Positions 7,704 to 56,209 of a stretch of 64,000 nt of DNA are shown here, in pieces. The translations under genes and the position numbers were made by a program. The DNA lies in the NCBI RefSeq assembly GCF_030373245.1, contig NZ_JAUCZF010000001.1:744001-808000 (forward strand), written 5' to 3'. The first letter of the stretch is position 1, and each line of letters begins with the position of its first letter. Below the pieces are notes generated by a model that saw nothing but the letters and a program-made list of their open reading frames with translations, had not been told where the DNA came from and searched no databases. This DNA is from Hydrogenophaga sp. Lineage in GTDB: Bacteria; Pseudomonadota; Gammaproteobacteria; Burkholderiales; Burkholderiaceae_C.

Positions 7704-7785
7704 GGGTGATGAGCGGACCATGTCGGGATGATGCACGATCCCGGGCGAAGCTCAATGCGCCCTAGGCAAAGCCTGCGTAAAGTTA

Positions 7786-9006
7786 TCACCTGGCGGTCTG
7801 TGCAGCGTCAGCGCGCTGCAGCACCACGTACCAGCCCATCACGGGCCTCAGCTGATCTTCGCGAATCGGGGCGGCCCACAGGGTCTGCACGATGAGCCCA
7901 CAGGCCGAGGCGAGCCGCTCGATGGCCGCACGCCCATGGGCGTAGCGCAGGCTGGGCCGCAGCTGCAAGTCGTGCCCCGGGTCGGCCTGCTCGACGCTGA
8001 AGGCCAGGACGCCGCCGGGCGCCAGGCGCCGCGCGGCAGCAGGCACCAGGGCGTCCAGCGCGCCCACATAAATAAACACATCGGCGGCCACGATCAGGTC
8101 GGCCAGCTCGTTACCCGACGTGAGGAAGGGCAGCAACTCGGCGTGATCGACGCGCCGGTAATGACCGCTGGCGCTCGCCTGCTCGACCATGACGCGCGAC
8201 ACATCCACCCCGTCCACCGCACCGCACACCGGCGCGAGCAGCTGTCCACACAGTCCGCTGCCGCAACCCAAATCCAGCGCCAACGACCAGTGGCGACCTT
8301 CGGCCAGCAGCGGCGCAAGCAGGGTGCTGTGTGCCTGGTACTTGAGATCCTGCAAAAGGTGGTGCTGGAAATCGGGTGCGTAGTCGTCGAACAGCGACTC
8401 GACGTAGGCGCGCGGCGGATGCGGCGGCACCGGCTCACCCGACCGCACCGCAGCCAGGTAGAAGCGGTTCAGCTCAGGATGTCCGCCGTGCACAAGCGCC
8501 TGATCAAACGCGTCTGCCGCATCGGTCCAGCGGCCAGCTTCGCGCATCAGGTTGCCGCGCAAGCTCCAGGCCTCAGCCAGTGTGGCGTCTGCTGCCAGCG
8601 CCTGATCCAGCGCGGCCAGCGCGGCGTCTGGCCGCTGGAGTCGCATCTGGCAGTCGGCCAGTGCCAGACACAGGGCACCGTCCTGCGAGCCGAGTGCGCG
8701 GGCACGAGACAGCGATTCGACCGCAGCGGTCCACTGGCCCAGGGCCTGCTGCGCCAGACCCAGCGCGCCCCACGCGTCCGCATGACCCGGGTCGGCCTGC
8801 GCGACGGACTGAAGGACGGGCAAAGCCTCGTGCCAGCGTGCCAGCCGGCAAAGTGTGGCTCCGCGGTTGGCCAGCAGCGACGGGCGACCGGGAGCGAGCG
8901 CCAGCGCGGCGTCAAAGTCAACCAGCGCAGCTTGCAGGCGCCCAGCCTCGAAGTGCGCGTTGCCACGGACAAACAGGGCTCGGGCCTGGTCCAGCGCGTT
9001 GCTCAC
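7786..9006 (-). CDS. TPR-repeat SAM-dependent methyltransferase
   Basis: A 406-residue protein with a GTG start. The first 175 residues are five or so tetratricopeptide repeats (LFVRGNAHFEAGRLQAAL; LLANRGATLCRLARWHEAL; AWGALGLAQQALGQWTAAV; AWSLRGNLMREAGRWTDAA). The rest is a class I methyltransferase: LALDLGCGSGLCGQLL is the SAM-binding glycine motif, VDGVDVSRVMVEQA the acidic strand, and LIVAADVFIYVGAL plus LAPGGVLAFSVE the later motifs. PRAYVESLFDDYAPDFQHHLL precedes the catalytic domain, as in other TPR-methyltransferase fusions. The TPRs probably bind a protein partner or substrate. Substrate unknown. It starts 23 bases after the downstream-lying hydratase stop in genome order and may be the last gene of the beta-oxidation cluster. 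Confidence 0.88.
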   Translation of the reverse strand: MSNALDQARALFVRGNAHFEAGRLQAALVDFDAALALAPGRPSLLANRGATLCRLARWHEALPVLQSVAQADPGHADAWGALGLAQQALGQWTAAVESLSRARALGSQDGALCLALADCQMRLQRPDAALAALDQALAADATLAEAWSLRGNLMREAGRWTDAADAFDQALVHGGHPELNRFYLAAVRSGEPVPPHPPRAYVESLFDDYAPDFQHHLLQDLKYQAHSTLLAPLLAEGRHWSLALDLGCGSGLCGQLLAPVCGAVDGVDVSRVMVEQASASGHYRRVDHAELLPFLTSGNELADLIVAADVFIYVGALDALVPAAARRLAPGGVLAFSVEQADPGHDLQLRPSLRYAHGRAAIERLASACGLIVQTLWAAPIREDQLRPVMGWYVVLQRADAAQTAR

Positions 9007-9029
9007 GTGGTCTCTCGGGGGCGCGGGAT

Positions 9030-9794
9030 TCAGACCTGAGAGAAGTCGGGCTTGCGCCGCTCCATGAAGGCGCCAAAGGCCTCACGCGCCGCAGGCTCGC
9101 GCAGCATGCGACCAAAGCTCTCGCCCTCTTCGGCCATCACCGCCATCACCTGCTGAGCCTGACCCTTTTTCATCAGCCGCTTGGTCTCGATCAGCGAGCT
9201 CAGCGGCTTGACTGCGAGCTTGCGCGCCACGGCCTGCGCGTAATTCGCCGCTTCGCTAGGTGGCAAGACCCGGTTGACCAGACCCACTTCCAGCGCCGCC
9301 TCGGCCATGAAAGGTTCGCCCAGCAGCAGGGCTTCGGCTGCGCGGTGGTAACCCAGCATCTGTGGCACGAGCAGGCTGGAGGCTGCCTCGGGGCAGAGAC
9401 CGAGGTTGACGAAGGGCATGGAAAACGCGGCGTTGTCTCCGGCATAGACCAGGTCGCAGTGCAGCAGCAGCGTGGTGCCGATGCCCACCGCCGGGCCGCA
9501 CACCGCCGCGATCGCCGGCTTGGGGAAACTGGCGATGCCGCGCAGAAAGCGGAACACCGGCGAATCGCCGGTGGCCGGCGGGTTGTTCAGGAAGTCGCCA
9601 ATGTCGTTGCCCGCGCTGAAGGTGGTTTCATTGCCCTGGAACACCACGCAGCGCACGCTGGCATCGGCCTCGGCCACCGCCAGCGCATCGGCCAGCGCCG
9701 CGTACATGGCCGCGGTGATGGAGTTCTTCTTATCGGGGCGGTTGAAGGTCAGCGTGGTCACGCCGGCTTCGGTGTGGACGAGGATGTCGCTCAT
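9030..9794 (-). CDS. Enoyl-CoA hydratase/isomerase family protein
   Basis: A 254-residue crotonase-fold protein from MSDILVHTEAGVTTLTFNRPDKKNSI. Oxyanion-hole segments are VVFQGNETTFSAGNDIGDFL and IAAVCGPAVGIGTTLLLHCDLVYAG. The Asn in SAGND and the EAASSLLVPQMLGY segment indicate a hydratase/isomerase; the sequence NLGLCPEAASS has Glu at a catalytic position. It could be a 2,3- or cis-trans enoyl-CoA isomerase as well as a hydratase. It lies 218 bases after the thioesterase gene on the same strand and is the last enzyme of the fatty acid cluster. Confidence 0.88.
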   Translation of the reverse strand: MSDILVHTEAGVTTLTFNRPDKKNSITAAMYAALADALAVAEADASVRCVVFQGNETTFSAGNDIGDFLNNPPATGDSPVFRFLRGIASFPKPAIAAVCGPAVGIGTTLLLHCDLVYAGDNAAFSMPFVNLGLCPEAASSLLVPQMLGYHRAAEALLLGEPFMAEAALEVGLVNRVLPPSEAANYAQAVARKLAVKPLSSLIETKRLMKKGQAQQVMAVMAEEGESFGRMLREPAAREAFGAFMERRKPDFSQV

Positions 9795-10012
9795 GTCGGG
9801 GGCTGGTTGGGTGGAAGAAGTGTGCTGGGGCTGGATGCCCCTGATCATCAGCACGATTGTCCACGTCTTTGACGGCGCACGCCCTTTCAAAGGAGACACG
9901 ACACTCAAGCCCAGCGCGGATATGCGTGCACGTCACGAGTCGGCGACAGCCTCGCTGCCTTCGCAGGCTGCGCTCGAGAGGCACGGGTCGTCCTTTGTAG
10001 GAAGGGTTCCCC

Positions 10013-33405: not shown

Positions 33406-33726
33406 ATGGCCGACATTCACATCCGACGCAATCACCACCTGGGTCTCGCCGGGGCGCGCAAGATCGCTTGGCAGTGGGCCGAACAGGCTGAAAGCGAGTT
33501 CGGCATGAGCTGCACGTACGAAGAAGGCGGCAACTGCGATGAGGTCTGCTTCACCCGCAGCGGCGTCGACGGCACGCTCACCGTCTCGGCCGATCATTTC
33601 GAGCTCGACGCCAAGCTCGGTTTCCTGCTCGGTGCATTCAAGGAACGCATCGAATCGGAGATCGTGAAAAACCTCGACGAGTTGCTTGCTGCGAAGAAGC
33701 CCGCAGCGCGCAAGAAAAAAACCTGA
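33406..33726 (+). CDS. Polyhydroxyalkanoic acid system family protein
   Basis: A 106-residue protein of the PHA granule-region family (PF09650). It starts MADIHIRRNHHLGLAGARKIAWQWAEQAESEFG and contains VCFTRSGVDGTLTVSADHFELDAKLGFLLGAFKERIE, the family core; the tail is Lys-rich (AAKKPAARKKKT). Such genes often lie with PHA synthesis or phasin genes and are thought to associate with granules; biochemical function is not known. It is 24 bases after the aminopeptidase and convergent with the acyl-CoA-binding protein gene. Confidence 0.88.
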   Translation: MADIHIRRNHHLGLAGARKIAWQWAEQAESEFGMSCTYEEGGNCDEVCFTRSGVDGTLTVSADHFELDAKLGFLLGAFKERIESEIVKNLDELLAAKKPAARKKKT

Positions 33727-34017: not shown

Positions 34018-34193
34018 GAGGGACTCCTAAAGAATGGGACACAGGCCAGGCGTACCGCGACACCGGCATCAGGGCTCGCCCGGTATCTTACGTGCTGAGG
34101 TCGCGGCACAATAGGCCGCTCACCCCAAGTCAGAAGCCTCACCCTTGCCGCACCACACCGTGGCGCCCAGGCGCGGAGGCCACAGGAGACAAC

Positions 34194-35765
34194 ATGGTCC
34201 AGCGCATCGCCCACGCCCCAGGCACTCCTCCGGCGCACACCCGGCCCGCCGCTCGCAAGAGGACCGGCCAGACCGCGCCAGCGGCCAGGGCGCGTGCCGC
34301 TGCGCCGACGCTGGTCAGCGCGCTGGGCCTGGAGGGCGAGCGCATGAGCAAGGTCGACACCGCCTGGCTGCGCATGGATTCCGACACCAACCTGATGATG
34401 ATCGTGGGCATCTGGGTCTTGCGCCCTGGTGTGTCGCTGAACGATTTGCAGCAACGGGTTCAGGAGCGCCTGCTGCCCTACCGGCGCTTCGTGCAGATCG
34501 CCCGCCAGGACGCCGCAGGAGCCCACTGGATCGACGACCCCGACTTCGACATCAACCGCCATGTGGTGACCGGAACTCTGAAGCACGAGCGCGGACAGTC
34601 CGAGCAGGAGGCTTTGCAGGCCCGCGTGGCCCTCCTTGCCACGCAGTCGCTCGATCACGAACACCCGCTCTGGTGTTTTGAGCTGATCGAAAACCACGAC
34701 GGTGGCTCGGCCCTGATCGCACGCATTCACCACTGCATTGGCGACGGCATCGCCCTCATCAGCGTCATGATGAGCCTGGTCGACGGTGGCAACCTGCCGC
34801 CCCAACGCAAAAAGCGCGCGCGCAAAGCCGGCATGGAAGCAGCCGAAGACTGGGTCGCTGACACGCTGATCCGCCCGCTGGGCGACCTGACCGCGCGCGC
34901 ACTTGAAGTGGCAGGCGGTGGCGCGGCCCGATCGTTTTCGATGATGGCTTCGCCCCAGCAGGGCCTGAACGACACCCTGGGTGGCGCGATGGATCTGGCG
35001 CGCATGGGCGGGCAACTGGCCAGCGACCTGGCCGCGCTTGCGCTCATGCCTGACGACTCGACCACCCGCCTGAAAGGCCAGCCCGGCGGCACCAAACGCG
35101 TCGCGTGGTGCGAACCGCTGCCGCTTGACGAGGTCAAGGCCATCGGCAAGGCGCTGAACTGCTCGATCAACGACGTCCTGCTGAGCTGCGTGGCCGGCGC
35201 CATCGGCTCCTACCTGCGCGAGATGGGCGACGACACCGATGGCCAGGAAATTCGCGCCATGGTGCCCATCAACCTGCGACCCATGGAGGACGCCTGGAAG
35301 TTGGGCAACCGCTTTGGTCTGGTGCCGCTGGTCTTGCCGATCGGGCTGGACAACCCGATTGAGCGCGTGTTCGCGGTGCGCGCGCGCATGAACGCGCTCA
35401 AGGGAAGCCTGCAACCATTGCTGACCTTTGGTCTGCTGTCGGTCGCCGGCTTGCTGATCAAGCCGGCGCAGGACGCCTTGCTCAGCCTGTTCGGCAAGAA
35501 GACCACCGCGGTGATGACCAATGTGCCCGGCCCGGCCACCAAGCTCAAGCTGTGTGGTGCCACGCTGGAGCAAAACATGTTCTGGGTCCCCCAGACCGGT
35601 ACGGTCGGTCTGGGCGTGTCCATCCTGAGCTATGGCGGCGGCGTGCAGTTCGGCGTGATTGCCGACACCGCCCTGTGCCCCGATCCCCAGCGCATCATCG
35701 ATCAGTTCGCGCCCGAGTTCGAGCGGCTGCTGATGGTGACGTTGATGCTGCCTTGGACAGAGTGA
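34194..35765 (+). CDS. Wax ester synthase/acyl-CoA:diacylglycerol acyltransferase (WS/DGAT)
   Basis: A 523-residue WS/DGAT-family O-acyltransferase. It esterifies fatty alcohol or diacylglycerol with acyl-CoA, forming wax esters or triacylglycerol. The catalytic motif is HHxxxDG: IHHCIGDGIALIS (His179-His180, Asp184-Gly185). The acceptor region MSKVDTAWLRMDSDTNLMMI and the C-terminal NVPGPATKLKLCGATLEQNMFWVP and SILSYGGGVQFG blocks are family landmarks. The chosen ATG (34194) has AGGAG five bases upstream, but the homologous part begins near residue 51, so a start at 34344 is possible; the extra residues are Ala/Arg/Pro-rich. It pairs with the fatty acyl-CoA reductase encoded at 20787-22772. 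Confidence 0.93.
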   Translation: MVQRIAHAPGTPPAHTRPAARKRTGQTAPAARARAAAPTLVSALGLEGERMSKVDTAWLRMDSDTNLMMIVGIWVLRPGVSLNDLQQRVQERLLPYRRFVQIARQDAAGAHWIDDPDFDINRHVVTGTLKHERGQSEQEALQARVALLATQSLDHEHPLWCFELIENHDGGSALIARIHHCIGDGIALISVMMSLVDGGNLPPQRKKRARKAGMEAAEDWVADTLIRPLGDLTARALEVAGGGAARSFSMMASPQQGLNDTLGGAMDLARMGGQLASDLAALALMPDDSTTRLKGQPGGTKRVAWCEPLPLDEVKAIGKALNCSINDVLLSCVAGAIGSYLREMGDDTDGQEIRAMVPINLRPMEDAWKLGNRFGLVPLVLPIGLDNPIERVFAVRARMNALKGSLQPLLTFGLLSVAGLLIKPAQDALLSLFGKKTTAVMTNVPGPATKLKLCGATLEQNMFWVPQTGTVGLGVSILSYGGGVQFGVIADTALCPDPQRIIDQFAPEFERLLMVTLMLPWTE

Positions 35766-36648: not shown

Positions 36649-37317
36649 TCAGATCAGACCGATCCAGCAGGCGCGCTGCACCGCGGCGAGCTTGTTGTCG
36701 GTCTGCAGCTTGGCCATGGCGTTGGCCAGGTGGTAATTGACCGTGCGCTCGGAGCAGTCCATGCGAGCGGCCGTCTCGCGCGCCGTGAGACCCTCGAAGG
36801 CCAGGTTGAGACTTTCCTGCTCGCGCGGGCTCAGGCTCACGCGCTGCTCGGCGATCGCTCGTCGCAGCATGGGCCAGATGTTGTAGGCCGACCAAGCGAG
36901 GGCGGCAGCCTCGGATCGGCTGGAGAACGCCCGCGGACTGAACATGAAACACTCGAAGGCCCGCCCCGCCGGCAGGCTGAACGCCACACGCACCAACGTC
37001 TGGTGGCCGTGCGCCAGCCACAGACGGCGCCAACGGCTGGCTTGTTCAAAAGACGCCTTGGAAATTTCCTGCCAGGCCACGAGTGGCGCATCGCTTTCGC
37101 GCCAGGCAGCGCCGAAGTCCCGGCTCTCAGCCAGGGCCTGGGCCGCACCGAGCAACCGCGGCGGATGCACGGCCAGTACCTCCCTGTCGTCGCGCCCAGC
37201 CAGGGGGTTAGGGCCGAGCACCACCACCGACTCCACGCCCTGGTCGCTCAGCGCGGCGACCCAGTCAGCCAAAACCGCATCCACACCAAGGTTGTCAAAG
37301 TTGACAGGCAGTGTCAT
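36649..37317 (-). CDS. LuxR-family regulator divergent from the Lqs-like kinase
   Basis: A 222-residue protein from MTLPVNFDNLG. The C-terminal helix-turn-helix (about 156-220) reads LSPREQESLNLAFEGLTARETAARMDCSERTVNYHLANAMAKL, typical of LuxR proteins of the quorum-sensing kind. The N-terminal 150 residues resemble the autoinducer-binding fold in helix/strand layout (WRRLWLAHGHQTLVRVAF) but the usual Trp/Tyr/Asp set for acyl-homoserine lactone is not clearly seen; no luxI gene is in the window. It lies 86 bases from the kinase start in divergent orientation, so the two probably share a control region. It may be the transcriptional output of, or an input to, the alpha-hydroxyketone system. 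Confidence 0.83.
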   Translation of the reverse strand: MTLPVNFDNLGVDAVLADWVAALSDQGVESVVVLGPNPLAGRDDREVLAVHPPRLLGAAQALAESRDFGAAWRESDAPLVAWQEISKASFEQASRWRRLWLAHGHQTLVRVAFSLPAGRAFECFMFSPRAFSSRSEAAALAWSAYNIWPMLRRAIAEQRVSLSPREQESLNLAFEGLTARETAARMDCSERTVNYHLANAMAKLQTDNKLAAVQRACWIGLI

Positions 37318-37339
37318 GGTCGTTACACCCGAATGCACG

Positions 37340-37389
37340 GACAATCGCTGCTTTTCTCGAGCCTTCGGCACAAGTGGGCAAAGATTGTC
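37340..37389. promoter_or_regulatory. Inverted repeat in the luxR-like/kinase divergent promoter
   Basis: GACAATC at 37340-37346 and GATTGTC at 37383-37389 form an inverted repeat with a 36-base gap inside the 86-base region between the two divergent starts. Possible regulator site or spaced half-sites; seven-base arms can arise by chance. Confidence 0.35.
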
Positions 37390-37403
37390 GTTGGAAGGAG
37401 TAC

Positions 37404-38705
37404 ATGTTGCCCTTGGACCGGTTGTGGTTCCACAGCGCGAGAGCCCGATTGTTCCGGTGGTTCATGACCGAGGTCGTCCATGAGCCACTCGACCTCATTT
37501 TGCACGCGTCCGCCGCCAGATTGAAGTGGACGGGATTTGCCCTCTGTTCGGGCAACATCTTCTTCTGGCTGGTTTGGACGCAGTGGCTGCCGCAGCCCTT
37601 CGAAAGTGCGCCAGTGCGATTCACGCTATCGATCAGTGGTCTGCTGTTTTTATCCAACTCAATCAATCGCGATGTGAGCTCCCGGTGGAGTGTCTGGACG
37701 TTTTCGCTCGTCTGCTTTGTGAGCATGCCCGTTTTCTTTTTCTGGATGTACTGGATGAATCAGGGAAATGCCGTGTGGCTCGCCAGCGTCTGCGGCATGC
37801 TGCTCATCTACTACAACCTGACGGACTGGCGTGTGGCGACGATTGGCAGCTGCCTCGGATTGATCTTGGGATGCGCATTTTCCTATCTGATGGCTCAAGA
37901 GACCCTACCACTTCCGCCCGAAAATCTGCTCGCTATCGGTTTTGCCTGGGTGTCCGCCGTGCTCCTTGGTCTTTCCAGCGCCAACTTGCGCCGTACCCGC
38001 CTGATCAACACCCTGAGCACGATGGCCGTGATGGCACATGAGTTGCGCACGCCACTGGCCACGGTGAACCTGATGGGCGACGTGCTGCGCACGCTGGCGC
38101 GCAACGACGTGCCAGAAGGCAAACGCAAGAAGATCGAAGAGCTGTCCACCCGCCTGCAAAATCTCGTGCGCAGCATGAACCGGCAGATCGACACCCAGAT
38201 TTCCAATGCGCAACTGCTGCGCCTGCCTCGCGAACAGTCTCCGGTCATGGCGGGCGATCTGGTCAGTGAAGTGATCAACAACTACCCCTATCGGTCCACC
38301 CGAGAGCGCGACTGCGTGCGGCTTCACATCCAGGAAGACTTCTGTTTCATGGCTTCGCGCCCACTGTTCATGCAGGTGATCACCAACCTGCTCAAAAACG
38401 CGCTGCACTCTCTGGCCTCGGCCAGCACCGCACCCAACCCGGGCGACCTGCGCATCGATGTCGGCGTGCACCGAGGCAAGGGCCGCATTGCGGTGTCCGA
38501 TGACGGCGTGGGCATTGCCCATGAGCAGCAGGCACGGATCTTTGAACCCTTTTTCTCCACCCAGGCCGGCGCTGGCAACGGCCTGGGCCTGACCTTCTGC
38601 AAGAACGTGGTGGAAGCCGCCCACGGCACCATCAGCGTGCACTCCGTGCCCACCATGGGCGCAGTCTTCATGGTCGATCTGCCCATCTACCGGGACGCTC
38701 ACTGA
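37404..38705 (+). CDS. lqsS: Six-TM sensor histidine kinase, LqsS/CqsS-like
   Basis: A 433-residue kinase from MLPLDRLW (AAGGAG just before the ATG). Six hydrophobic helices lie at about 40-60, 72-86, 97-119, 123-137, 144-163 and 174-193, with short loops, as in CqsS and LqsS which sense alpha-hydroxyketones at the membrane. The dimerisation helix has His212 (MAVMAHELRTPLATVNLMGDV), the N box is NLLKNALHSLASA, and ATP-lid motifs are DDGVGI and GNGLGLTFCKNVVEAAHG. There is no fused receiver, as in LqsS and unlike CqsS. The response regulator gene starts 29 bases later. Signal identity is inferred from the linked synthase. Confidence 0.88.
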   Translation: MLPLDRLWFHSARARLFRWFMTEVVHEPLDLILHASAARLKWTGFALCSGNIFFWLVWTQWLPQPFESAPVRFTLSISGLLFLSNSINRDVSSRWSVWTFSLVCFVSMPVFFFWMYWMNQGNAVWLASVCGMLLIYYNLTDWRVATIGSCLGLILGCAFSYLMAQETLPLPPENLLAIGFAWVSAVLLGLSSANLRRTRLINTLSTMAVMAHELRTPLATVNLMGDVLRTLARNDVPEGKRKKIEELSTRLQNLVRSMNRQIDTQISNAQLLRLPREQSPVMAGDLVSEVINNYPYRSTRERDCVRLHIQEDFCFMASRPLFMQVITNLLKNALHSLASASTAPNPGDLRIDVGVHRGKGRIAVSDDGVGIAHEQQARIFEPFFSTQAGAGNGLGLTFCKNVVEAAHGTISVHSVPTMGAVFMVDLPIYRDAH

Positions 38706-38734
38706 GCACGCCTGCAGTTCTAGCTGAACACCAC

Positions 38735-39721
38735 ATGGCACTCACACTATCCCTTTTCCATCGACCCGGCAGCGTGCTGTTCCTGGACGACGACGCCGAG
38801 TATCTCGAGATGCTGGGCATGGTGATCCCGGCGCACTGGCAGGTCGAGCTGTATTCGCGACCCGCTGCCTTTTCTCGCCGCATGCGCGACGAGCCGGCGC
38901 GCTGGGAAGCCGACGCCGCGGCCCAGTTGCAGATGATCGACCGCTGGCGCCAGGGCCAGCCCCTGCTGCCCCAGGTGCTGCGCTACTGGGCCAACCACCC
39001 GCAACGCCACCAGCTGGCCAAGACCTGCGTGGTCGACTACGCCATGCCAGGCACCAATGGCTTGCAGGTGCTCGAAACGCTGATCGACTGGCCCGGTGCC
39101 CGCGTTCTGCTCACGGGCCAGGCCGACGAGCAAGTCGCGGTGCAGGCGTTCAACCAGGGCCTGATCGACCAATTCGTACCCAAGCAGGCGCGCGACATCA
39201 CCCGCCTGCTGCTGGGCGCTTTGCGAAAACTGGGGAACTCACCTCACCCGCGCGTCAACACCTTGTGGCGGGCCACGCTGCGGCCCGCCCAACAGTCCAT
39301 GCTGCAGATTCCGGCGGTCGCGCAGGCGCTGCAGAACTATGCCGAGAAGCACTGGGTCGAGTACGTCGTGCTCGACCAGCCCTTTGGCCTGCTGGGCATG
39401 GACGTCGACGGGCGTTGCCACTGGCTCCAGCTGGAGGCGAAGTCCAGCCTGGGTGACCTGGCGGAGCTGGCCAGTTCGGCCGGCCTCGGACTCGAGGCGG
39501 TCCGGGCTGTGGAACAAGGTCACCGGCTTGTGGCGATCGAATTGCACCAGCACCTCGGACTGCGAGGTGCGGTCCGCACCGCGCCGTCCATGTCCATGGG
39601 CGACGATGACACGCTGCGTGCAGCGCTATTCAGCCTCGAACCGGAAGACCTGCCTGCGCCGATCTACCCCTACCGCCACTTTCTGGAGGCACAGGGCGAT
39701 CGGCTCATTCAGGACGATTGA
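38735..39721 (+). CDS. lqsR: Response regulator, LqsR-like
   Basis: A 328-residue protein. The receiver has the acidic pocket SVLFLDDDAEYLEML (Asp18-20), phosphoacceptor Asp101 (CVVDYAMPGTNGLQVLETL), Thr127 (VLLTGQADEQ) and Lys150 (FVPKQARD). About 50 residues (50-97, including RWRQGQPLLPQVLRYWANHPQRHQ) are inserted between the first helix and the Asp strand, as in LqsR of Legionella. The region after 165 is an output domain of unknown type with WVEYVVLDQPFGLLGMDVDGRCHWLQLEAKSS; it has no recognised DNA-binding motif. Its last 13 bases overlap the 3' end of the convergent synthase gene. Confidence 0.87.
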   Translation: MALTLSLFHRPGSVLFLDDDAEYLEMLGMVIPAHWQVELYSRPAAFSRRMRDEPARWEADAAAQLQMIDRWRQGQPLLPQVLRYWANHPQRHQLAKTCVVDYAMPGTNGLQVLETLIDWPGARVLLTGQADEQVAVQAFNQGLIDQFVPKQARDITRLLLGALRKLGNSPHPRVNTLWRATLRPAQQSMLQIPAVAQALQNYAEKHWVEYVVLDQPFGLLGMDVDGRCHWLQLEAKSSLGDLAELASSAGLGLEAVRAVEQGHRLVAIELHQHLGLRGAVRTAPSMSMGDDDTLRAALFSLEPEDLPAPIYPYRHFLEAQGDRLIQDD

Positions 39722-40956
39722 GCCGCGTTGAGCCGGGCGCGTCGCGCAATCGGCCACTCCCATGGTTTGACAATGGGCGCGATCTCGCGAGCGACCAGCT
39801 CAACATGCGCCAGTTCAGAATCCGTCAGCGATGCGTCCAGCGTCAGACGCACGATCGTCCTGCTGCTGGTGGTCGCCGGGGCGCAAAACACCGCGCCAAA
39901 AACCTCCCGCTCCTCCAGGCAATCTCGCAGAACCATCGTATCTGCCTCGGTGCCAGCTTCCAGGGCGATGATTTGCTCTGTTCCTTGATGAACCGGAAAG
40001 CCAATGTCAGAGAGCGACTGTCTCATCGCTTTTGACGCATGGTGCAGCCGCTGCCGCTGCGCGTCGCAGCCTTGAATCACGTCCAAAGTGGCATCGAGCG
40101 CCGCCACTTCGTGGGGCAACAGACACGAACTGAAAATGTTCTGGAAGCTGGTACTCAAGATGTAGTTGCGCAGGCCCGTCGGGATATTGAAATAACCGGC
40201 ACGCCCAGCAAACGACTTGGCCAAGCTTGAGGTGATGAAATGCACCCGGTGAGAAAGGCCCAAGGCTTGACACAGTCCAGAGCCCCCAGGCCCATGCGTG
40301 CCAAGTGAGTGGGACTCGTCCACCAGTATCATGCAGCCCGCTGATTCGGCGACATCCACCATCACCTCCAAAGGACACACAGCACCCGTGGTGCTGTAGA
40401 CAGAGTCAACAATGACGAGGCCAACGCCGTGCTTGCGAACAAGGCGTTGCAGGTGTCCCATATCGTTGTGGCGAAATGGGTGGACAGGCGCCCCCCCTCG
40501 CCTCGCGCCCTCCCACAACGAAGCGTGCGCCAGCATGTCGATGTAAACGGGGGTCTGCTCGTCGGTGATGCACTGCAAAAGGCCGACGTTGGCTGCGTAC
40601 CCAGACTGGCACAAGATGCCATCGTCTTTGCCAATCCATTGAGCCATCTTCCTTTCAAAGGCCCGCACTGGGTGCGTTTCCAACAGGAAGCAGCCGGACT
40701 GGATCACGAATTCAGCGTCTTCGCGGATGGCGGCGGTTTGGGCTGCCACGATTTGCGGGTGCCCCGTCAGGCTCAGGTAGTCGTTGCCATTCAGTCGCAC
40801 GGCGTTTGGCCCGGGATCTCTGCCGTGCACCAGCGACCGGCCACCCCAAGGGCCATTCCAGCGCTGGACAAAGTCGCGCTCAATACGATCGCAAAGGTGT
40901 GCGGTCATTGCCGGGTTAATACTCGTCGGCACCCGGACCAGTTCAAGCGTTTCCAT
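39709..40956 (-). CDS. lqsA: Alpha-hydroxyketone quorum-sensing autoinducer synthase (CqsA/LqsA family)
   Basis: A 415-residue PLP-dependent alpha-oxoamine synthase from METLELVRVP. The PLP lysine is Lys247 (ITSSLAKSFAGRAG) with Asp213 and His216 in VDESHSLGTHGPGGSGL. Features separating it from KBL, BioF and ALAS are the N-terminal WGGRSLVHGRDPGPNAVRLNGNDYL, LCQSGYAANVGLLQCI, MLAHASLWEG, VDSVYSTTGAVCPL and IFSSCLLPHEVAAL, all CqsA/LqsA signatures. The enzyme condenses an acyl-CoA with an amino acid to an aminoketone that becomes the alpha-hydroxyketone signal. The linked kinase and regulator support this. A 204-base intergenic region upstream is relatively AT-rich and should hold its promoter. 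Confidence 0.93.
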   Translation of the reverse strand: METLELVRVPTSINPAMTAHLCDRIERDFVQRWNGPWGGRSLVHGRDPGPNAVRLNGNDYLSLTGHPQIVAAQTAAIREDAEFVIQSGCFLLETHPVRAFERKMAQWIGKDDGILCQSGYAANVGLLQCITDEQTPVYIDMLAHASLWEGARRGGAPVHPFRHNDMGHLQRLVRKHGVGLVIVDSVYSTTGAVCPLEVMVDVAESAGCMILVDESHSLGTHGPGGSGLCQALGLSHRVHFITSSLAKSFAGRAGYFNIPTGLRNYILSTSFQNIFSSCLLPHEVAALDATLDVIQGCDAQRQRLHHASKAMRQSLSDIGFPVHQGTEQIIALEAGTEADTMVLRDCLEEREVFGAVFCAPATTSSRTIVRLTLDASLTDSELAHVELVAREIAPIVKPWEWPIARRARLNAAQSS

Positions 40957-41161
40957 GGGGATATCCTCAATGAGATGGAACAAAACCTCATTGAAGAAAG
41001 GAATCTGTGAAAAACTGCACACCACCTGTCAGTCTTAGCAGGGGGTGTTACGCTTTCTTATCAATTTCCGTGCCAGAGCTGACGATAACGCGCCGTCAAA
41101 ACAACGGTTTCGTGAAATAACGCACAGGTGCTTGCCAGGAGCCCAGAAATGCGCTTCGGGC

Positions 41162-42277
41162 TCAGTTTTGCCGCCAGGGCAGGCCGAGGTGCCGCCATCC
41201 ACCCAGCTTGCCGCGCTGTGCGTGGGCATCCGGATCCCCTTCAAAACCACCCAGGATGTTGAAAGCCAGCAGACCCAGTTCGGTGGCGCGCTTGGCAGCG
41301 GCAATCGAGCGCACGCCGCTGCGGCACATCAGCACCAGTTTCTTGTTGCCGGCCGCCGCCGCGCGGATCTGCTCGTCAAACGCCGGGTTCAGCGCCATGC
41401 CCGGCCACTGTTTCCAGGCCACCGGCACCGCTCCAGGCACAAAGCCCACCCACTCGCGCTCGGCATCGGTGCGCACATCGACCAGCACCGCCTCGCCCGA
41501 TTGCATCCACTCCCAGGCAAGCGGGGCGGACACGTCGCCGGCATACCCGGCCTGCACTGGCCTCGGCTGCATCAGCAGCGCGCCGTCCAGATCGTGGCGC
41601 AGGCCCGAGGTGAGGTTGGCGGGTACAGCTTCATCAATTCGGCGCGGCCTGGGTAGGTTCAGCGCCTCCATGATGGCGACGAACTCAGCCTCGCTCTTTC
41701 CGGCTACGCGCGCATTGCCGGTTTTCTCCTGGCCAATGGTGGAATGCGTGCGCCCCTGGTAATCGTGTCCGGGCCAGACGGTGGTGTCGTCGGGAAGTGC
41801 AAACAAAATCTGCGTGATGCTGTGGAAAAGCGCCTGCGCGCTGCCAGACTGAAAGTCGGTGCGACCACAGCCGTTGATGAGCAGGGTGTCACCGGTGAAC
41901 ACGTGATCGCGCCAGACGAAACTCATGCTGCCTTCGGTGTGGCCAGGCGTGTGCAACGCCTTCAACACCTCTTCGCCAAAACTCAGTGTGTCGCCGTGCT
42001 GCAGCTGAACGCCAGCGGTGCCGATGCCGCAGCCCACCGGAGCCGCGGTGCGCGCACCGGCCAGCTCGGCGAGCTTGCCTGCGCTGGTGATGTGATCGGC
42101 GTGCGCGTGGGTCTCAACCGTCCAGACCAGCTTGAGCCCGTATTCGCGCAGCGTGTCCAGATCGCGCTCAATCTGCTCGTCGACCGGGTCGATGATCAGC
42201 GCCTCGCGGGTAGCGAGATCGAACAGCACGTAGGTGTAGGTACTGGACGCGGGATCAAACAGCTGGATCGGTCTCAT
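41162..42277 (-). CDS. Persulfide dioxygenase-rhodanese fusion (MBL fold + rhodanese)
   Basis: A 371-residue fusion. Residues 1-235 are an ETHE1-like metallo-beta-lactamase domain: THAHADHITS gives His57, His59, Asp61 and His62; His113 (TPGHTEGSM), Asp130 (VFTGDTLLI) and His171 (WPGHDYQGR) complete the iron site for oxidation of glutathione persulfide to sulfite. Residues 250-371 are a rhodanese domain with Cys318 in LVLMCRSGVRS, which moves sulfane sulfur. Such natural fusions are known in Burkholderia and in Staphylococcus CstB. It follows, 17 bases on, a CsoR-family repressor, so sulfide/persulfide detoxification under that repressor is likely. CGGAG precedes the ATG. Confidence 0.92.
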   Translation of the reverse strand: MRPIQLFDPASSTYTYVLFDLATREALIIDPVDEQIERDLDTLREYGLKLVWTVETHAHADHITSAGKLAELAGARTAAPVGCGIGTAGVQLQHGDTLSFGEEVLKALHTPGHTEGSMSFVWRDHVFTGDTLLINGCGRTDFQSGSAQALFHSITQILFALPDDTTVWPGHDYQGRTHSTIGQEKTGNARVAGKSEAEFVAIMEALNLPRPRRIDEAVPANLTSGLRHDLDGALLMQPRPVQAGYAGDVSAPLAWEWMQSGEAVLVDVRTDAEREWVGFVPGAVPVAWKQWPGMALNPAFDEQIRAAAAGNKKLVLMCRSGVRSIAAAKRATELGLLAFNILGGFEGDPDAHAQRGKLGGWRHLGLPWRQN

Positions 42278-42294
42278 GATGACTCCGGGACGTT

Positions 42295-42537
42295 TCAGGA
42301 AAAGCGGGCGAGCAGATCGGCCACGTCGTCGGCAGGCACATCCCCCTGCGCGATCACACAGCCCACCAGGCTGAAAAAGGTCTTGTCCAGCGCCTTGCGC
42401 GCCGCAGCCAGCTGCTGGGCCACCTTTTCACAATCGGCATCGGATTCGATGAGCTTTTGAATGCCTCGCAACTGGCCCTCGGCGCGCTTGAGGCGCAACA
42501 CGATGGATCTTTTTCGGGCGGCGTCGTGAATGATCAT
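42295..42537 (-). CDS. CsoR/DUF156-family repressor lacking the metal-site His (CstR-like)
   Basis: An 80-residue helical repressor from MIIHDAARKRS; an ATG at 42585 would add 16 residues with two Cys (MSCHRYPESTPCTN) and cannot be excluded, since neither start has a good ribosome site. RLKRAEGQLRGIQKLI is the DUF156 DNA-binding helix. Cys36 (DADCEKVAQQL) matches the first metal or thiol site. At the place where CsoR or FrmR have a His, the sequence reads SLVGCVIAQG, giving Cys60 one position earlier and no His. Two cysteines without His fit a persulfide sensor of the CstR kind better than a Cu or formaldehyde sensor. It precedes the persulfide dioxygenase fusion. Confidence 0.82.
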   Translation of the reverse strand: MIIHDAARKRSIVLRLKRAEGQLRGIQKLIESDADCEKVAQQLAAARKALDKTFFSLVGCVIAQGDVPADDVADLLARFS

Positions 42538-42876
42538 GGCAGTGTTGGTGCAAGGCGTGCTTTCGGGGTACCGATGACAGCTCATCGCATACCACTGGGG
42601 GTGTCGGTCGATTTTCTCTGTTTTCGCTCCGCCGACGATGCAAACTGAAGCGCAGATGCGGTGGCTGTCTGTCGCACACGCGTCAAGGAGAAAAAAGAAT
42701 TTTGCGCCCGCTGGTCAATTTACCTTTGAAATCAAGCATTTAAAAAAAATAGGGGGAAGTGCCAATGGGGAAAACCCGAGCACACGAAAGCCGGGTTGGC
42801 CGCGACGATCAACGGTGACCCTGTCGGGAATTCGACCTCCGTACCGGGGCACCCAAGCAACATCACAGGAGACACG

Positions 42877-47726: not shown

Positions 47727-47750
47727 ATTGACGTTTACGTAAACGTCAAT
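47727..47750. promoter_or_regulatory. 24-bp perfect palindrome upstream of ppk2-icmF
   Basis: Half-site ATTGACGTTTAC is followed directly by its exact inverse, 44 bases before the PPK2 start. The ACGTTTACGTAAACGT core has the form of operators bound by MerR-family LiuR-type regulators of branched-chain and fatty acid catabolism, from memory. No such regulator is encoded in the window. Overlap with a promoter is likely given the position. Confidence 0.75.
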
Positions 47751-47794
47751 TGGCGACGCGCCTGATGGGGCGCATCGCAGCAACAAGGAACGCC

Positions 47795-48694
47795 ATGGCC
47801 AGCTTCAGCGACGTCGTCCTGCCCTTTCCGTCGTCGACCCTGCATGCAGGCAAAGGCAGCCCGTGGCGCGACTGGCAAGTCGGCGAGAGCTCGCCGGACA
47901 ACGACAAGAAAAATGGCAACCGGGTGTCGCTGGCCAAGTTCAAGTCCGACGCCATGCCCTACTCCACCGGCAACAAGCTTGAGGACAAAGCTGCGGTCGA
48001 GGCCCTCGCTCAGGAAATCGACGGTCTGCAAAACCTGTTCTTTGCCGATGGTCGTTTCAAGATGCTGGTGGTGCTGCAAGGCACCGACACCTCCGGCAAA
48101 GACGGCACGGTTCGCGGCGTGTTTGCGCGCACCAGCCCGCTGGGCGTGCACACCGTGGGCTGGAAGGCGCCGACCGAGACCGAACGCGCTCACGACTTCC
48201 TCTGGCGCATCCACCAGCGCGTGCCAGGTGCTGGCCAGATCATGGTGTTCAACCGCAGCCACTACGAAGATGTGCTGGTGCCGGTGGTCAATCGCTGGAT
48301 CACGCCCGAACAGACCCGGCAGCGCTACCAGCACATCAACGAATTTGAGCAGTTGCTGGCCGAGAGCGGCACGGTGATCCTCAAGTGCATGCTGCACATC
48401 AGCAAGGAAGAGCAGCGCGAACGCCTGCAAGACCGCATCGACGATCCGACCAAGCACTGGAAATTCAGCATGGGCGATGTCGAGGTGCGCAAGCAGTGGG
48501 ACGACTACCAGCGCGCCTACGAAGACCTGCTGGGCGCCACCAGCACGCCCTGGGCACCCTGGACCGTGGTACCCGCCGACACCAAGACCCACCGCAATCT
48601 CATGATCGCCACGCTGGTCCGCGACTGCCTCAAGGCGCTGGACCTGCGCTTTCCGCCACAAGACCCGACCCACGCCGGTCTGCGCATCGAATAG
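47795..48694 (+). CDS. ppk2: Polyphosphate kinase 2 family protein
   Basis: A 299-residue PPK2 from MASFSDVVLPF (AAGGA five bases before the ATG). It uses polyphosphate to phosphorylate nucleotides, or the reverse. Motifs: Walker A VLQGTDTSGKDGTVRG (96-105, Lys102), lid region GWKAPTETERAHDFLWRIHQRVPGAGQIMVFNRSHYEDVLVPVV with the Walker B, and NEFEQLLAESGTVILKCMLHISKEEQRERLQDRIDDPTKHWKF. Length suits the single-domain class I or III. The NRSHYEDV form (Asn in place of Asp) is seen in class III-like PPK2, which accept AMP and ADP; class is not settled here. It is 27 bases upstream of icmF. Confidence 0.93.
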   Translation: MASFSDVVLPFPSSTLHAGKGSPWRDWQVGESSPDNDKKNGNRVSLAKFKSDAMPYSTGNKLEDKAAVEALAQEIDGLQNLFFADGRFKMLVVLQGTDTSGKDGTVRGVFARTSPLGVHTVGWKAPTETERAHDFLWRIHQRVPGAGQIMVFNRSHYEDVLVPVVNRWITPEQTRQRYQHINEFEQLLAESGTVILKCMLHISKEEQRERLQDRIDDPTKHWKFSMGDVEVRKQWDDYQRAYEDLLGATSTPWAPWTVVPADTKTHRNLMIATLVRDCLKALDLRFPPQDPTHAGLRIE

Positions 48695-52015: not shown

Positions 52016-52141
52016 TGGCGGGCAACCGGAGCCACTGGCGCAGATAAGTTGCGGATTGCTGGCGCTGTTCCCTCGCTCTGAGCTGCCATGGGCTGCTAGA
52101 CTGAAAGAGGAAGTCAGCCACACCCCGCAGCGCCCCGCACC

Positions 52142-55100
52142 ATGCCACCTTCCCTTGGACACACCACGCCGGGTGAGCCGGTCAGCCACGCGCCGGTGAA
52201 CCCGCCACCAGCAGCCGCTTCGATCGACCTGGAACGCACCTGGCTGCGTGCGCTGTCGGTGGTCGCCATCGGGCTGTTTCTGCTGCTGTCCATCGGCCTG
52301 CTGGCCACGCAACGCGCTGCGGCCCTGGGCATGGCCGAAGCGCAAGCGCAACGCGAAAGCAAGCGCCTGGCGGCTGAGTTGCAAGCCTCGCTGCGGGTTG
52401 CCCGGGCCACCATGGACGTGTTGCTGGAGTCGCCCGAACCAGCGGGAGCCAACCTGATGGGTGATCACGCCCAGATGGTCAGCGCCCTGGACCTGCCATT
52501 TTCCCTTCGACAATCAGCCCAGACCAATCAACCCAGCGGCCAGTGGTGGCCTGAACTGGCCCGCCAAGAGGCCGGTGAATGGGTGGTTCCGCTGACCTGG
52601 AGACATGCTACCGAGAAGGGTGGCCAGACCCATGAGGTGCTGCTGGACCGCAAGGCTCTTCTGGACCGGTTCGCATCAGAGGGTCTGCCCAGCGGTGGCA
52701 GCATGAGCCTGTTTCGCGTCGAAGATGACGGTGCCACGACCATTCTGGCGCGGTACCCGATACTGGAACAGGATCAGGGCCGCGTGCTGCACGGCCATGT
52801 GGCCAGCGCCTTGCAACGTGGCACCAGCGGGGTCATGCAGGTGGTGGCACAGATCGACGGCGTGCACCGAATCGTAGGCTACCAGCGACTGGCCGAGGGC
52901 GCGGAGCGCCTGGCAGTGGTGTACGCCCTGCCGGTTTCAGGCGTGATGTCCACCTGGACAGCGGTGCTGCCTCTGGCGATCGCTCTGAGCTTGCTGGTGG
53001 CCGGCGCCATGGCCTACGGCGCGTGGCGCCTGGACCGGGCCATTCAACTGAGGCACCGCAGCGAGCGGCACTTCCAGACCCTGAGCGATCACCTGCCCGA
53101 TGTGGTGGTGCGATACGATCGCGATGGCCGAGTCCTCTACGCAAACCCTGCGGTGGCAAGGGTCAACGGCACATCACCGGAAGCCATGGTGGGCCGGACC
53201 ATGGAGCAGTTTGGCACCCCGCCCGAGATCGCCAGACGATGGATGGACTGCCTGGGGCGCGTCTTCGCCACCGGCGCTCCTGAAACCCTGTACTTCTCCT
53301 ACCCGGGTCCATTGGGCGAACGCCACTGGGAAGCCCAGGTCAGCCGCGAACCGGTACTGGCGGGTGAACAATCCACGGCGCTGGTGATCAGCCGCGACAT
53401 CACCGAACGCCATGAGGCCGAGGCGCGCCGCCTGGCGGCCCAGCAACTGTTTGAGTCGGTTTTTCAGGCAGCGCCCGAGGCCATGTCGCTGGCCGAATGG
53501 GACAGCGGGCGACTTCTGCTGGTCAACGACGCGTTCTGCGACCTGTTTGGACGTTCACGAGAACAGATCATCGGATTCACCTCCACCGAGCTCGGGCTCT
53601 GGCGCTCAAACGAGAACCGCCAACGCCTGTTGGTTGCCCTGGACAAGGGCGGCAAAGTGCGCAACGTCCAGGGCGAGAGCATCCGGCCGGACGGACAGGA
53701 AATCCACGTGCGCTACAGCGCCGAACAGGTCGTGGTCGACGGGCAACCGCGCCTGCTGCTGATGTTTCGCGATGTGACCCAGCTTGAAGCCGACCAGCGC
53801 GCGCTGGCACGAAGCGAACTGCGTTTCCGGCTCGCGGCTTCCCATGGCCAGGTCTGGGAATGGGACTTTGGCCAGGGCTTCTTGAAGCCCAGCGACGAAT
53901 TTTTTGTGACGCTGGGCCATCCATCGCCGCCGGACGGTCAGATGGGATCGCAATTCCTGGACCTCATTCACCCAGAAGACCGGCCCCGCTTGCGCATGGT
54001 GATCCGGCGCTTCTTCAAAGGAGAGGGCGAGTACCAGCTGGAGTTCCGCGCACGCGATGCGCAAGGCCGATACCGCTGGTTTGACACCCAAGGCGGCGGC
54101 CTGCGCGATGCCAATGGTCGTGTCACCTACATGGCTGGCACCATCTTCGATGTATCCGACCGCAAGGCGGTAGAGGAGGTTCAACGCCAGACGCTGGCCC
54201 AGCTTGACACCGTGGCCAATGCATCGCAAGCGCTGTTCTGGACCACCGACATCCACAAGCGCCCCAACTGGCTGAACAAGGCATGGCTGGCGTTCACCGG
54301 CCGCGATCTGGTCAGTGAGTGCGACACCTTCTGGCTGGAGGACCTGCATCCCCTGGACCGCGAGCGATGCGCCAGTACGTTCGACGAAGCATTCGACGCC
54401 CGTGAACCGTACAACATGGAATACCGCATGCGGCGGCATGACGGCGAATACCGCTGGTTGCTGGAGCGGGGAAATCCCCGGTACGACGCCGACAACCGCT
54501 TCATCGGCTTCATTGGCTCCTGCCTGGACGTGACCGAACTCAAGCAGGCAGAGGCCGTCGCCAGTGAGCGCGGCGCGATGCTGAAACAGGTGTTCGACGT
54601 GCTGGAGGACATGCTGTTCGTGGTCGACGAGCAAGAGCGTTTCGTGCACTTTCAGGCCGGGCAGACCGACCGGCTGTACGCTCAGCCCGAGCAGTTCCTG
54701 GGTCGCACCTTCAGCGATGTCTTGCCACCCCAGCTGGTCCAGATGCAGCGCGACGCGATGGCGCGTGCACGCCTACATGGTCTGCAGGAAATGGACTACA
54801 GCCTGGAGCTGCCCATGGGTCGCCGCCACTTCAATGCCCGGCTGGCCTGGCTGGCCGAGAGCGGGCATTGCATGTTCCTGGTGCGCGATGTCACAGACCA
54901 GCAGGCTGCCCAGGCCGAGCGTGGGCGCCTGAACGAATTCGTCCTGCTCCTGTTCAGCCTGGCCAACCGCTTCATCAACTTGCCGGTACACGAGGCGGAC
55001 AACGCCATCAACGAAGCACTGGGTGACATGGGCCGCTTTGTCGACGCCGACCGTGCCTATCTGTTCGACTACGACATGGCAACAGTGACAGCGTCGAACA

Positions 55101-56209
55101 CCCACGAATGGTGTGGCGAGGGTGTCACCCCGGCGATCGACGACCTGCAGAACATTCCGTTCTCCATGATTCCCGACTGGTTCAACGAGCACAGCCACGG
55201 ACGTGTGATGTATGTTCCCGATGTCCGGGCTCTGCCGGAAGGTCCCCTGCGCGCCTTCCTGGAGCCACAAGGCATCCAGAGCCTGATGGCGCTGCCGCTG
55301 ATGCATGGTGAACAGTGCCTGGGTTTTGTGGGACTGGATTCGGTCCGCAACACCCACAACTACGGCGAGGAAGAGGCCACCTTGCTGCAGCTGTTCGCCC
55401 AGATGCTGGTGAACATCAGCCTGCGAGTGGAAGCGGAAGCCAGGATCCGCGAGCTGACTGACGGCCTCGAGCACAAGGTGGCCGAACGCACGGTGCAACT
55501 GGAGAGCAGCGTGCGACAGCTCAAGACCGTCAACCTGCAGCTCGAGTCGTTCACCTACTCGGCTTCGCATGACCTGCGCACGCCGCTGCGTGGTATCGAA
55601 GGCTTCAGTTCGCTGCTGCTGGACGAACACGCGACGCAGCTGGACGACCAGGGGCGCGACTACCTGAAACGTATTCAGAAGTCCACCCTGCACATGTCGC
55701 AGCTGATCAACGATCTGCTGGCCTATTCACGCCTGCAGCAGCTGGGCGAGCAGATGGAGCCAGTGGCGCTTGCGGACTGTGTGCGGTCCGTGGCCGCGCC
55801 GTTCCGCGACGAACTGGAGGCGCGCCATGGGGAGCTGACCGTGCGGGTCGCCGAGGACCTGAAGGTTAGGGCCAACTCCCAGGGGCTGGCCATCGTGCTG
55901 CGCAACCTGATGGACAACGCCTTGAAATTCACGCCGAAGGACGACGCGCCGCGCATCCACATCGAAGCCCGGGCCGAGGGCGATCGTGTTCTGTTGAGCA
56001 TGGGCGATCAAGGCATCGGCTTCGATATGCGTTATCACGACCGCATCTTCGGCATGTTCCAGCGGCTGCACCGGCAGGAACAGATACCGGGCACCGGAAT
56101 CGGTCTGGCACTGGTGCACAAGGCGGTGGAGCGCATGGAAGGCCGCATCTGGGCCGAAAGTGCGCCCGGGCAGGGCGCCACCTTCCACATCGAACTGCCC
56201 AACGCCTGA
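52142..56209 (+). CDS. Large membrane sensor histidine kinase with multiple PAS and a GAF domain
   Basis: A 1355-residue protein. Order: Pro-rich N-terminus; TM1 at about 36-57; periplasmic sensor of about 215 residues; TM2 at about 274-294; five PAS-like domains between about 310 and 935, with repeated ISRDITERHEAEAR/FRDVTQLEADQ/FDVSDRKAVEEV/LDVTELKQAEA/VRDVTDQQAAQAE ends; a GAF domain (about 945-1095); then the kinase core with His1143 (TYSASHDLRTPLRGIEGFSSLL), N box LRNLMDNALKFTPKD and G boxes GDQGIGFD, GTGIGLALVHKAVERM. It has no receiver and no response regulator gene nearby, so it is an orphan. Its ligand is unknown; PAS domains may bind haem, flavin or nothing. Confidence 0.93.
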   Translation: MPPSLGHTTPGEPVSHAPVNPPPAAASIDLERTWLRALSVVAIGLFLLLSIGLLATQRAAALGMAEAQAQRESKRLAAELQASLRVARATMDVLLESPEPAGANLMGDHAQMVSALDLPFSLRQSAQTNQPSGQWWPELARQEAGEWVVPLTWRHATEKGGQTHEVLLDRKALLDRFASEGLPSGGSMSLFRVEDDGATTILARYPILEQDQGRVLHGHVASALQRGTSGVMQVVAQIDGVHRIVGYQRLAEGAERLAVVYALPVSGVMSTWTAVLPLAIALSLLVAGAMAYGAWRLDRAIQLRHRSERHFQTLSDHLPDVVVRYDRDGRVLYANPAVARVNGTSPEAMVGRTMEQFGTPPEIARRWMDCLGRVFATGAPETLYFSYPGPLGERHWEAQVSREPVLAGEQSTALVISRDITERHEAEARRLAAQQLFESVFQAAPEAMSLAEWDSGRLLLVNDAFCDLFGRSREQIIGFTSTELGLWRSNENRQRLLVALDKGGKVRNVQGESIRPDGQEIHVRYSAEQVVVDGQPRLLLMFRDVTQLEADQRALARSELRFRLAASHGQVWEWDFGQGFLKPSDEFFVTLGHPSPPDGQMGSQFLDLIHPEDRPRLRMVIRRFFKGEGEYQLEFRARDAQGRYRWFDTQGGGLRDANGRVTYMAGTIFDVSDRKAVEEVQRQTLAQLDTVANASQALFWTTDIHKRPNWLNKAWLAFTGRDLVSECDTFWLEDLHPLDRERCASTFDEAFDAREPYNMEYRMRRHDGEYRWLLERGNPRYDADNRFIGFIGSCLDVTELKQAEAVASERGAMLKQVFDVLEDMLFVVDEQERFVHFQAGQTDRLYAQPEQFLGRTFSDVLPPQLVQMQRDAMARARLHGLQEMDYSLELPMGRRHFNARLAWLAESGHCMFLVRDVTDQQAAQAERGRLNEFVLLLFSLANRFINLPVHEADNAINEALGDMGRFVDADRAYLFDYDMATVTASNTHEWCGEGVTPAIDDLQNIPFSMIPDWFNEHSHGRVMYVPDVRALPEGPLRAFLEPQGIQSLMALPLMHGEQCLGFVGLDSVRNTHNYGEEEATLLQLFAQMLVNISLRVEAEARIRELTDGLEHKVAERTVQLESSVRQLKTVNLQLESFTYSASHDLRTPLRGIEGFSSLLLDEHATQLDDQGRDYLKRIQKSTLHMSQLINDLLAYSRLQQLGEQMEPVALADCVRSVAAPFRDELEARHGELTVRVAEDLKVRANSQGLAIVLRNLMDNALKFTPKDDAPRIHIEARAEGDRVLLSMGDQGIGFDMRYHDRIFGMFQRLHRQEQIPGTGIGLALVHKAVERMEGRIWAESAPGQGATFHIELPNA

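Follow-up and report, generated by a model that had tools for sequence, protein, structure and literature searches.

A LuxR-type regulator gene and predicted lux-type palindromes accompany an alpha-hydroxyketone quorum-sensing locus in Hydrogenophaga and other Comamonadaceae

Analysis of a 64,000-nucleotide stretch of Hydrogenophaga sp. DNA (positions 744,001 to 808,000 of contig NZ_JAUCZF010000001.1; hereafter the window) identified an alpha-hydroxyketone (AHK) quorum-sensing locus in which the genes for an AHK autoinducer synthase, a sensor histidine kinase and an LqsR-family response regulator are accompanied by a conserved fourth gene, encoding a LuxR-type regulator, and by two palindromes. 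Based on the sequence evidence presented here, we consider it probable that these four genes form one AHK unit, in which the LuxR-type protein (LuxR) would bind the palindromes and feed back on the synthase gene and on the kinase-regulator genes. A first-pass annotation of the range 36649-40956 had described the synthase, kinase and regulator genes, and we recovered all three at the same positions and on the same strands. This range also takes in the LuxR-type gene (37317-36649), which the annotation mentioned only as linked; the linkage is real, but it is not incidental, as across Comamonadaceae this gene is a conserved fourth part of the locus with candidate DNA sites of its own. The two palindromes (37291-37308 and 41025-41042) were absent from that description. 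The features of the locus, in window coordinates, are:

36649..37317, - strand: LuxR-type regulator gene, 222 amino acids (aa), with a GerE helix-turn-helix C-terminus and a predicted autoinducer-binding-like N-terminal fold
37291..37308: palindrome 1 (CCTGTCAACTTTGACAAC on the - strand), with 2 mismatches, within codons 4-9 of LuxR and ahead of the kinase gene
37339..37346, + strand: GGACAATA-like element (window copy GGACAATC), 39 bases from the center of palindrome 1
37404..38705, + strand: six-helix sensor histidine kinase gene (LqsS/CqsS type), 433 aa, His212
38735..39721, + strand: LqsR-family response regulator gene, 328 aa, Asp101
39709..40956, - strand: AHK autoinducer synthase gene (CqsA/LqsA/JqsA type), 415 aa, Lys247
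40989..40995, - strand: TTCAATG element ahead of the synthase gene (window copy)
41025..41042: palindrome 2 (CCTGCTAAGACTGACAGG on the - strand), lux-box-like, upstream of the synthase gene, with 2 mismatches to the consensus

The window genome (G000) is 3.86 Mb, and the nearest named relative that we found is a Hydrogenophaga metagenome-assembled genome with a synthase 91% identical to that of the window. Our genome scan retained the best 80 of 480 named loci (from Hydrogenophaga, Polaromonas, Ramlibacter, Variovorax, Caenimonas, Tibeticola and others), and in 76 of these best 80 the LuxR gene adjoins the kinase gene; three of the remaining four are cut by a contig end (L096, L127 and L159), and the fourth, L143 of Polaromonas sp. 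OV174, has no LuxR gene. Among 35 genus-mates, the synthase gene is present in 29 and the LuxR gene in 29, with both in 28 and neither in 5; the genome with a synthase and no LuxR (G020) is 59% complete with a contig that stops within the regulator gene, and the genome with LuxR and no synthase is G022. The unit is flanked by coaX and an MBL-rhodanese gene in 23 of the 24 genus loci where the contig runs past both ends, the one exception being L038, where no MBL match was seen. Where both the unit and LuxR are absent, the gap between coaX and the MBL gene measures 50, 66, 58 and 250 bp (G002, G005, G016 and G030, respectively), and coaX was not found in G034, the fifth genus-mate without the unit. 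As 11 of the 76 LuxR-bearing named loci have no coaX in a flank of >3 kb, it is the unit itself that is conserved and not its neighborhood. We therefore rejected the idea that LuxR is a mere neighbor of coaX, since these 11 loci keep the unit and four genus-mates with coaX and the MBL gene have neither the unit nor LuxR.

The same association is seen at the level of the family, where, of 200 genomes, 23 contain both synthase and LuxR, 3 a synthase without LuxR, 4 LuxR without a synthase and 170 neither gene (Fisher p 5e-23, a value that ignores relatedness; by the listed handles, both searches used the same 200-genome draw). The synthase-only genomes are G666, with a solitary synthase inside the LuxR clade, and G744 (55% complete, contig-cut) and G777, both with synthases outside it, and the LuxR orthologue is absent from all 16 loci of other families. 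An LqsR-type gene adjoins LuxR in all 91 unique LuxR genes, with the kinase gene present beside 87 and the synthase gene beside 86. Four genomes (G710, G724, G810 and G823) carry LuxR and the regulator with neither kinase nor synthase, G022 retains LuxR, kinase and regulator without a synthase, and the aspartate motif of the regulator is intact in all five of these synthase-less cases. These receiver-only remnants (L064 in G022, 6770-9848, and L200-L203) are candidates for listening to the signal of others.

Relatives share a palindrome upstream of the synthase gene, CCTGTCA-N4-TGACAGG, which we scored over 14 fixed positions in the 84 LuxR-bearing loci that had enough upstream sequence after removal of duplicates. 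This analysis demonstrated that 81 of the 84 carry the palindrome within 2 mismatches (0 mismatches in 65, 1 in 13 and 2 in 3, with at least 4 in the other 3), a match reached by 0 of 2,360 mononucleotide shuffles. The palindrome center and the start of a TTCAATG element (≤1 mismatch) are 38 or 39 bases apart in 76 of these 81 loci, and the distance from the palindrome to the synthase start codon varies from 67 to 116; the element may be the -10 of the synthase promoter. CTG-N10-CAG is the pattern of LuxR-family boxes. Only 4 of 23 loci with no LuxR in view have the palindrome within two mismatches, i.e., three contig-cut loci of the LuxR lineage and L193, and the LuxR-less loci inside the clade, L143 and L177, have six mismatches, which is background level. 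L177 (in G666) is a solitary AHK synthase: over 14.5 kb, neither the kinase, regulator and LuxR genes nor the palindrome accompany it. A small inverted repeat near the synthase start of the window (TCAATGAG...CTCATTGA) was dropped as a candidate, since by eye it was not seen upstream in relatives.

The second palindrome lies inside the LuxR reading frame, and here we observe selection on the site at the level of codons. The LuxR N-terminus, MTLPVNFD, is invariant in 15 sequences, and residues 1-10 are modeled with very low confidence (mean predicted local distance difference test score, pLDDT, 35). Codons 4-9 read CCTGTCAACTTTGACAGT or close to it and so spell the palindrome, and we attribute the invariant start to what appears to be a constraint on the DNA. 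Counts over 103 orthologues (duplicates included) showed Pro4 to be CCT in 93 of 94, Phe7 to be TTT in 90 of 93 and Ser9 to be AGT or AGC in 91 of 91, compared with 9% CCT, 35% TTT and ~45% TCN at the respective residues elsewhere in the same LuxR genes. Within the first 12 codons, 77 of the 91 unique LuxR genes have the site with ≤2 mismatches, a result given by 3.5% of synonymous shuffles at the genes' own codon usage. In L202, for example, the peptide has changed to PVKSDS, but the dyad is kept by the DNA (CCTGTCAAGTCTGACAGT). Toward the kinase gene, 44 of these 77 genes have a GGACAATA-like element (≤2 mismatches) 39-40 bases from the palindrome center, a spacing resembling that of TTCAATG at the synthase, and this element may be the -10 of the kinase-regulator promoter.

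We also scanned 28 chosen genomes for the palindrome with ≤1 mismatch, using the reversed palindrome as the control. The 18 LuxR-bearing genomes contain 64 sites versus 3 for the control, and the 10 LuxR-less genomes contain 4 versus 3. The locus itself accounts for 26 of the 64 sites and 38 lie outside it, and we inspected 37 of these 38 along with 3 from LuxR-less genomes, with the starts of nearby genes chosen by a score of GC content at third codon positions (GC3) and not by a gene caller. The resulting regulon leads are weak. Two species of one genus (G702 and G812) share sites 35 bases from an NDH-2 gene, 122-176 bases from a ShlB-type secretion gene and in the vicinity of a TonB-receptor gene; in the same two species, exact palindrome copies lie ~0.5-0.8 kb from RebB-type (R-body, "killing trait") genes in L235 (934-1815) and L243 (3073-3698), where membership of the RebB family was tested for one gene of the two loci (L235, 1332-1571). 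Six Hydrogenophaga genomes share a site in a region with a VanZ gene and a UPF0093 gene, which we take to be hemJ-like, and in four of these six this extra copy sits 35-42 bases past a predicted stop codon, a position at which a terminator may lie.

Several observations weigh against our interpretation. Three LuxR-bearing loci (L092, L116 and L123) have no good site at the synthase, 14 of the 91 LuxR genes have no good site at their start, and L193, a LuxR-less locus of another family, carries a site with 2 mismatches. Both palindrome copies of the window itself carry 2 mismatches, and since the window genome contains 10 sites at two mismatches (two of them in this locus) versus 5 for the control, a wider regulon is not established for this strain. 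Our locus counts ignore relatedness, and 86 of the 91 LuxR loci were gathered via the synthase, so that their completeness is in part a product of selection and the five synthase-less cases are the informative ones.

The proteins themselves support the assignment of the locus. As the first-pass annotation had proposed, the synthase is of the CqsA/LqsA type, i.e., the VHGRDPG and SLGTHGP blocks and Lys247 are all present; it matches NCBIfam NF005526 ("alpha-hydroxyketone-type quorum-sensing autoinducer synthase") with 544 bits, where the cut-off is 428, and its closest solved structure is CqsA (3hqt, E 5e-98). Our synthase tree comprised 42 rows, namely 33 AHK synthases, Vibrio and Cupriavidus included, and 9 outgroup rows (ALAS was not included), and because some nodes are unresolved and long branches come together we use only its named splits. 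All 33 AHK synthases fall on one side of a branch with support 98/93, and the window synthase belongs to a fully supported 12-row set in which every row is a LuxR-lineage locus. The outgroup consists of four glycine C-acetyltransferases above the NCBIfam cut-off, four rows with BioF as best match (one above the cut-off) and L260. This branch and the best matches of the outgroup rule out that the synthase is a BioF or KBL enzyme. The homology and tree comparison that the annotation had suggested as a check thus groups the synthase with the AHK rows and away from the BioF and glycine C-acetyltransferase rows, in a tree without ALAS rows, and its score over a curated cut-off and placement with the Vibrio and Cupriavidus synthases support the AHK quorum-sensing reading. 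The protein of L260 (842-2146, G050) has the AHK synthase family as its best NCBIfam match, at 303 bits and so under the cut-off of 428, and branches immediately outside the AHK clade. With G000 and G001 among the genomes sampled, synthases of this family occur in 26 of 200 family, 14 of 250 order and 17 of 398 phylum genomes (one of the 17 under the cut-off), and a search of a plasmid collection returned 7 records, three of which were entered in the tree.

The kinase is as previously described, with six hydropathy maxima, His212, HisKA and HATPase_c domains and no receiver match, and its profile also matches kinases adjoining synthases in other families. The sole other window frame matching this profile (52100-56206, + strand, 93 bits) encodes a large protein, part of which is a histidine kinase. 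The regulator has as its best match LqsR of Legionella (6sy9; E 8e-14 by sequence and 1.2e-18 by fold; predicted model pLDDT 91.5), and Asp101, Asp18/19, Thr127 and Lys150 are invariant across 13 regulator sequences. A receiver with a 50-residue insertion had been proposed for this protein; Asp101 is present, and the insertion is plausible, in that 82 residues separate Asp19 from Asp101 and the Pfam match covers only residue 95 onward. This gap is ~40 residues longer than the equivalent spacing in CheY.

In the LuxR-type protein, the Pfam GerE domain is matched at 6.7e-15 and was found in 15 of 15 LuxR sequences, the same 15 giving no match to Autoind_bind (PF03472) at E≤1. The AlphaFold model (pLDDT 79) has its best fold matches in RhlR, QscR, SdiA and TraR. 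LuxR orthologues begin at an ATG corresponding to the start of the 222-aa protein, and a longer form starting at the GTG at 37371 is less likely. An ordinary acyl-homoserine lactone (AHL) role is unlikely, since there is no Autoind_bind match and no LuxI above the cut-off in 19 genomes (two weak matches fall below it). In L051, from another Burkholderiales family, a canonical Autoind_bind LuxR gene (2654-3391) comes after the LqsR-type regulator gene and shares its orientation; these two kinds of protein may have been paired independently there.

In the mechanism that we propose, the synthase would make an AHK, and the membrane kinase would sense it and change the phosphorylation of the LqsR-type regulator. 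LuxR would be the DNA-binding arm, recognizing CCTGTCA-N4-TGACAGG both in the synthase promoter and where the start of the LuxR gene and the kinase promoter share a site; bound to both palindromes, it would activate the synthase and kinase genes and perhaps limit itself. The resulting feedback loop would join signal production and perception, with a few further targets. We infer both the signal chemistry and the route from regulator to LuxR. It is most likely that LuxR works jointly with the LqsR-type regulator, for which the main support is that the pair persists without the synthase, and we tentatively suggest, at somewhat less than even odds, that LuxR is the missing output partner of the LqsR-family regulator, which is not known to have a DNA-binding output of its own and would act on LuxR directly or via a shared product.

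It is unlikely, if worth bearing in mind, that LuxR itself instead senses the AHK or some other small molecule in the cytoplasm, as a second receptor working in parallel with the kinase, and that the LqsR-type regulator acts elsewhere: LuxR is kept in the four genomes that lack both synthase and kinase, always with the LqsR-type gene, and by sequence it lacks the Autoind_bind domain. A different challenge to the proposed feedback by LuxR is that another factor, i.e., the LqsR-type regulator or an unlinked protein, binds the palindromes and LuxR only neighbors them, which we regard as highly improbable given that, of the 18 loci without LuxR that fall outside its lineage, namely L182, L183 and 16 of other families, just one has the site within 2 mismatches, that L143 keeps kinase, regulator and synthase without LuxR and has a site at background only, and that the CTG-N10-CAG pattern matches LuxR-family boxes. 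In its favor, excerpts of PMC3376566 and PMC10653808 give the LqsR output domain as of unknown function. The same excerpts give the output of LqsR in Legionella as unknown and state as open how LqsR-family regulators alter gene expression. Most improbable of all is that the palindromes are RNA hairpins or terminators and not operators. They are perfect dyads, and the post-stop copies in four Hydrogenophaga genomes would suit such a role, but the copy at the synthase precedes the gene and keeps a nearly constant distance from a promoter-like element, the LuxR copy lies within a coding start, and the palindrome is gone where LuxR has been lost.

AHK systems are already known, and it is the conserved LuxR gene and its sites that are the new part. 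The gene order, which the first-pass annotation considered unusual, turned out to be common in the other sampled families: kinase and regulator converge on the synthase in 11 of 13 other-family loci with all three genes, the exceptions being L051 (divergent) and L195 (all on one strand). The LuxI/LuxR AHL systems and LuxR solos share with our unit the GerE domain and the CTG-N10-CAG box, and possibly the autoinducer-binding fold that is predicted here, but here there is no LuxI over the cut-off and no Autoind_bind match, and the partners of LuxR are an AHK synthase and a two-component system. Like our unit, the Jqs system of the betaproteobacteria Janthinobacterium and Duganella (JqsA, JqsS, JqsR and the signal JAI-1) combines an AHK-type synthase, a kinase and an LqsR-type regulator, and excerpts of PMC3566124 and PMC5080296 report a palindrome conserved ahead of the synthase gene and of target genes, as here, and describe no LuxR partner, which is present here. 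The sites differ, since the JAI-1 motif of Jqs-regulated promoters is TTGA-N6/7-TCAA (PMC5080296, in part) and ours is CCTGTCA-N4-TGACAGG; the JAI-1 motif occurs in the 340 bp upstream of the synthase in 2 of the 84 LuxR-bearing loci, the window not being one of them.

The Lqs system of Legionella (LqsA, LqsS and LqsR) comprises the same three protein families, and the fold of our regulator matches LqsR; however, according to excerpts of PMC3376566 and PMC10653808, hdeD lies between convergent lqsS and lqsR in Legionella, whereas a LuxR-type gene and candidate sites are found here. As regards the Cqs system of Vibrio, the CqsA synthase is homologous to ours and in one clade with it, and two loci with synthases that group with that of Vibrio campbellii (L198 and L199) match our kinase profile. 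In contrast to the window kinase, with no receiver match, the CqsS of Vibrio is a hybrid kinase that feeds into LuxU/LuxO (PMC3376566, in part), and the cqs cluster of V. cholerae has no LqsR homologue (PMC3566124, in part), where the window unit has one. In Ralstonia, PhcX is an LqsR-family regulator that has departed from the Lqs genes and is linked to phc genes, whereas the four genomes without kinase and synthase in our survey keep the LqsR-type regulator beside LuxR; the same excerpts of PMC10653808 name Hydrogenophaga, in a figure legend, among the genera with phcX/lqsR adjoining phc genes, and the term LuxR has 0 occurrences in the main text of that article. A literature search with subscription papers mostly outside its reach found, among the papers listed, no publication joining an AHK system to a linked LuxR or lux-type box, a result that does not show absence.

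Several genes surround the locus in the window. An MBL-rhodanese gene and an upstream metal-sensitive-repressor (CsoR-type) gene (41162-42585) are the usual right-hand neighbor of the unit in Hydrogenophaga. By Pfam, the window also encodes a polyhydroxyalkanoate (PHA) granule-region protein (33406-33726), a WS/DGAT wax-ester synthase (34092-35765) and a PPK2 polyphosphate kinase (47750-48694), and the WS/DGAT gene adjoins coaX in most genus loci.

If LuxR is the output partner of the LqsR-family regulator, then an AHK two-component signal would be read through a lux-type box, joining two textbook quorum-sensing designs. The predicted operator in the LuxR reading frame would in turn be a clean case of DNA-level selection holding a protein sequence. 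With a conserved DNA-binding partner, the site predicted for it and genomes that have naturally lost one part or another, the idea can be tested directly in a genus that is free-living. If our reading of the unit is correct, AHK signaling in many Comamonadaceae, with the synthase in 26 of the 200 family genomes sampled, would run via a lux-type box, and its targets would be predictable by site searches.

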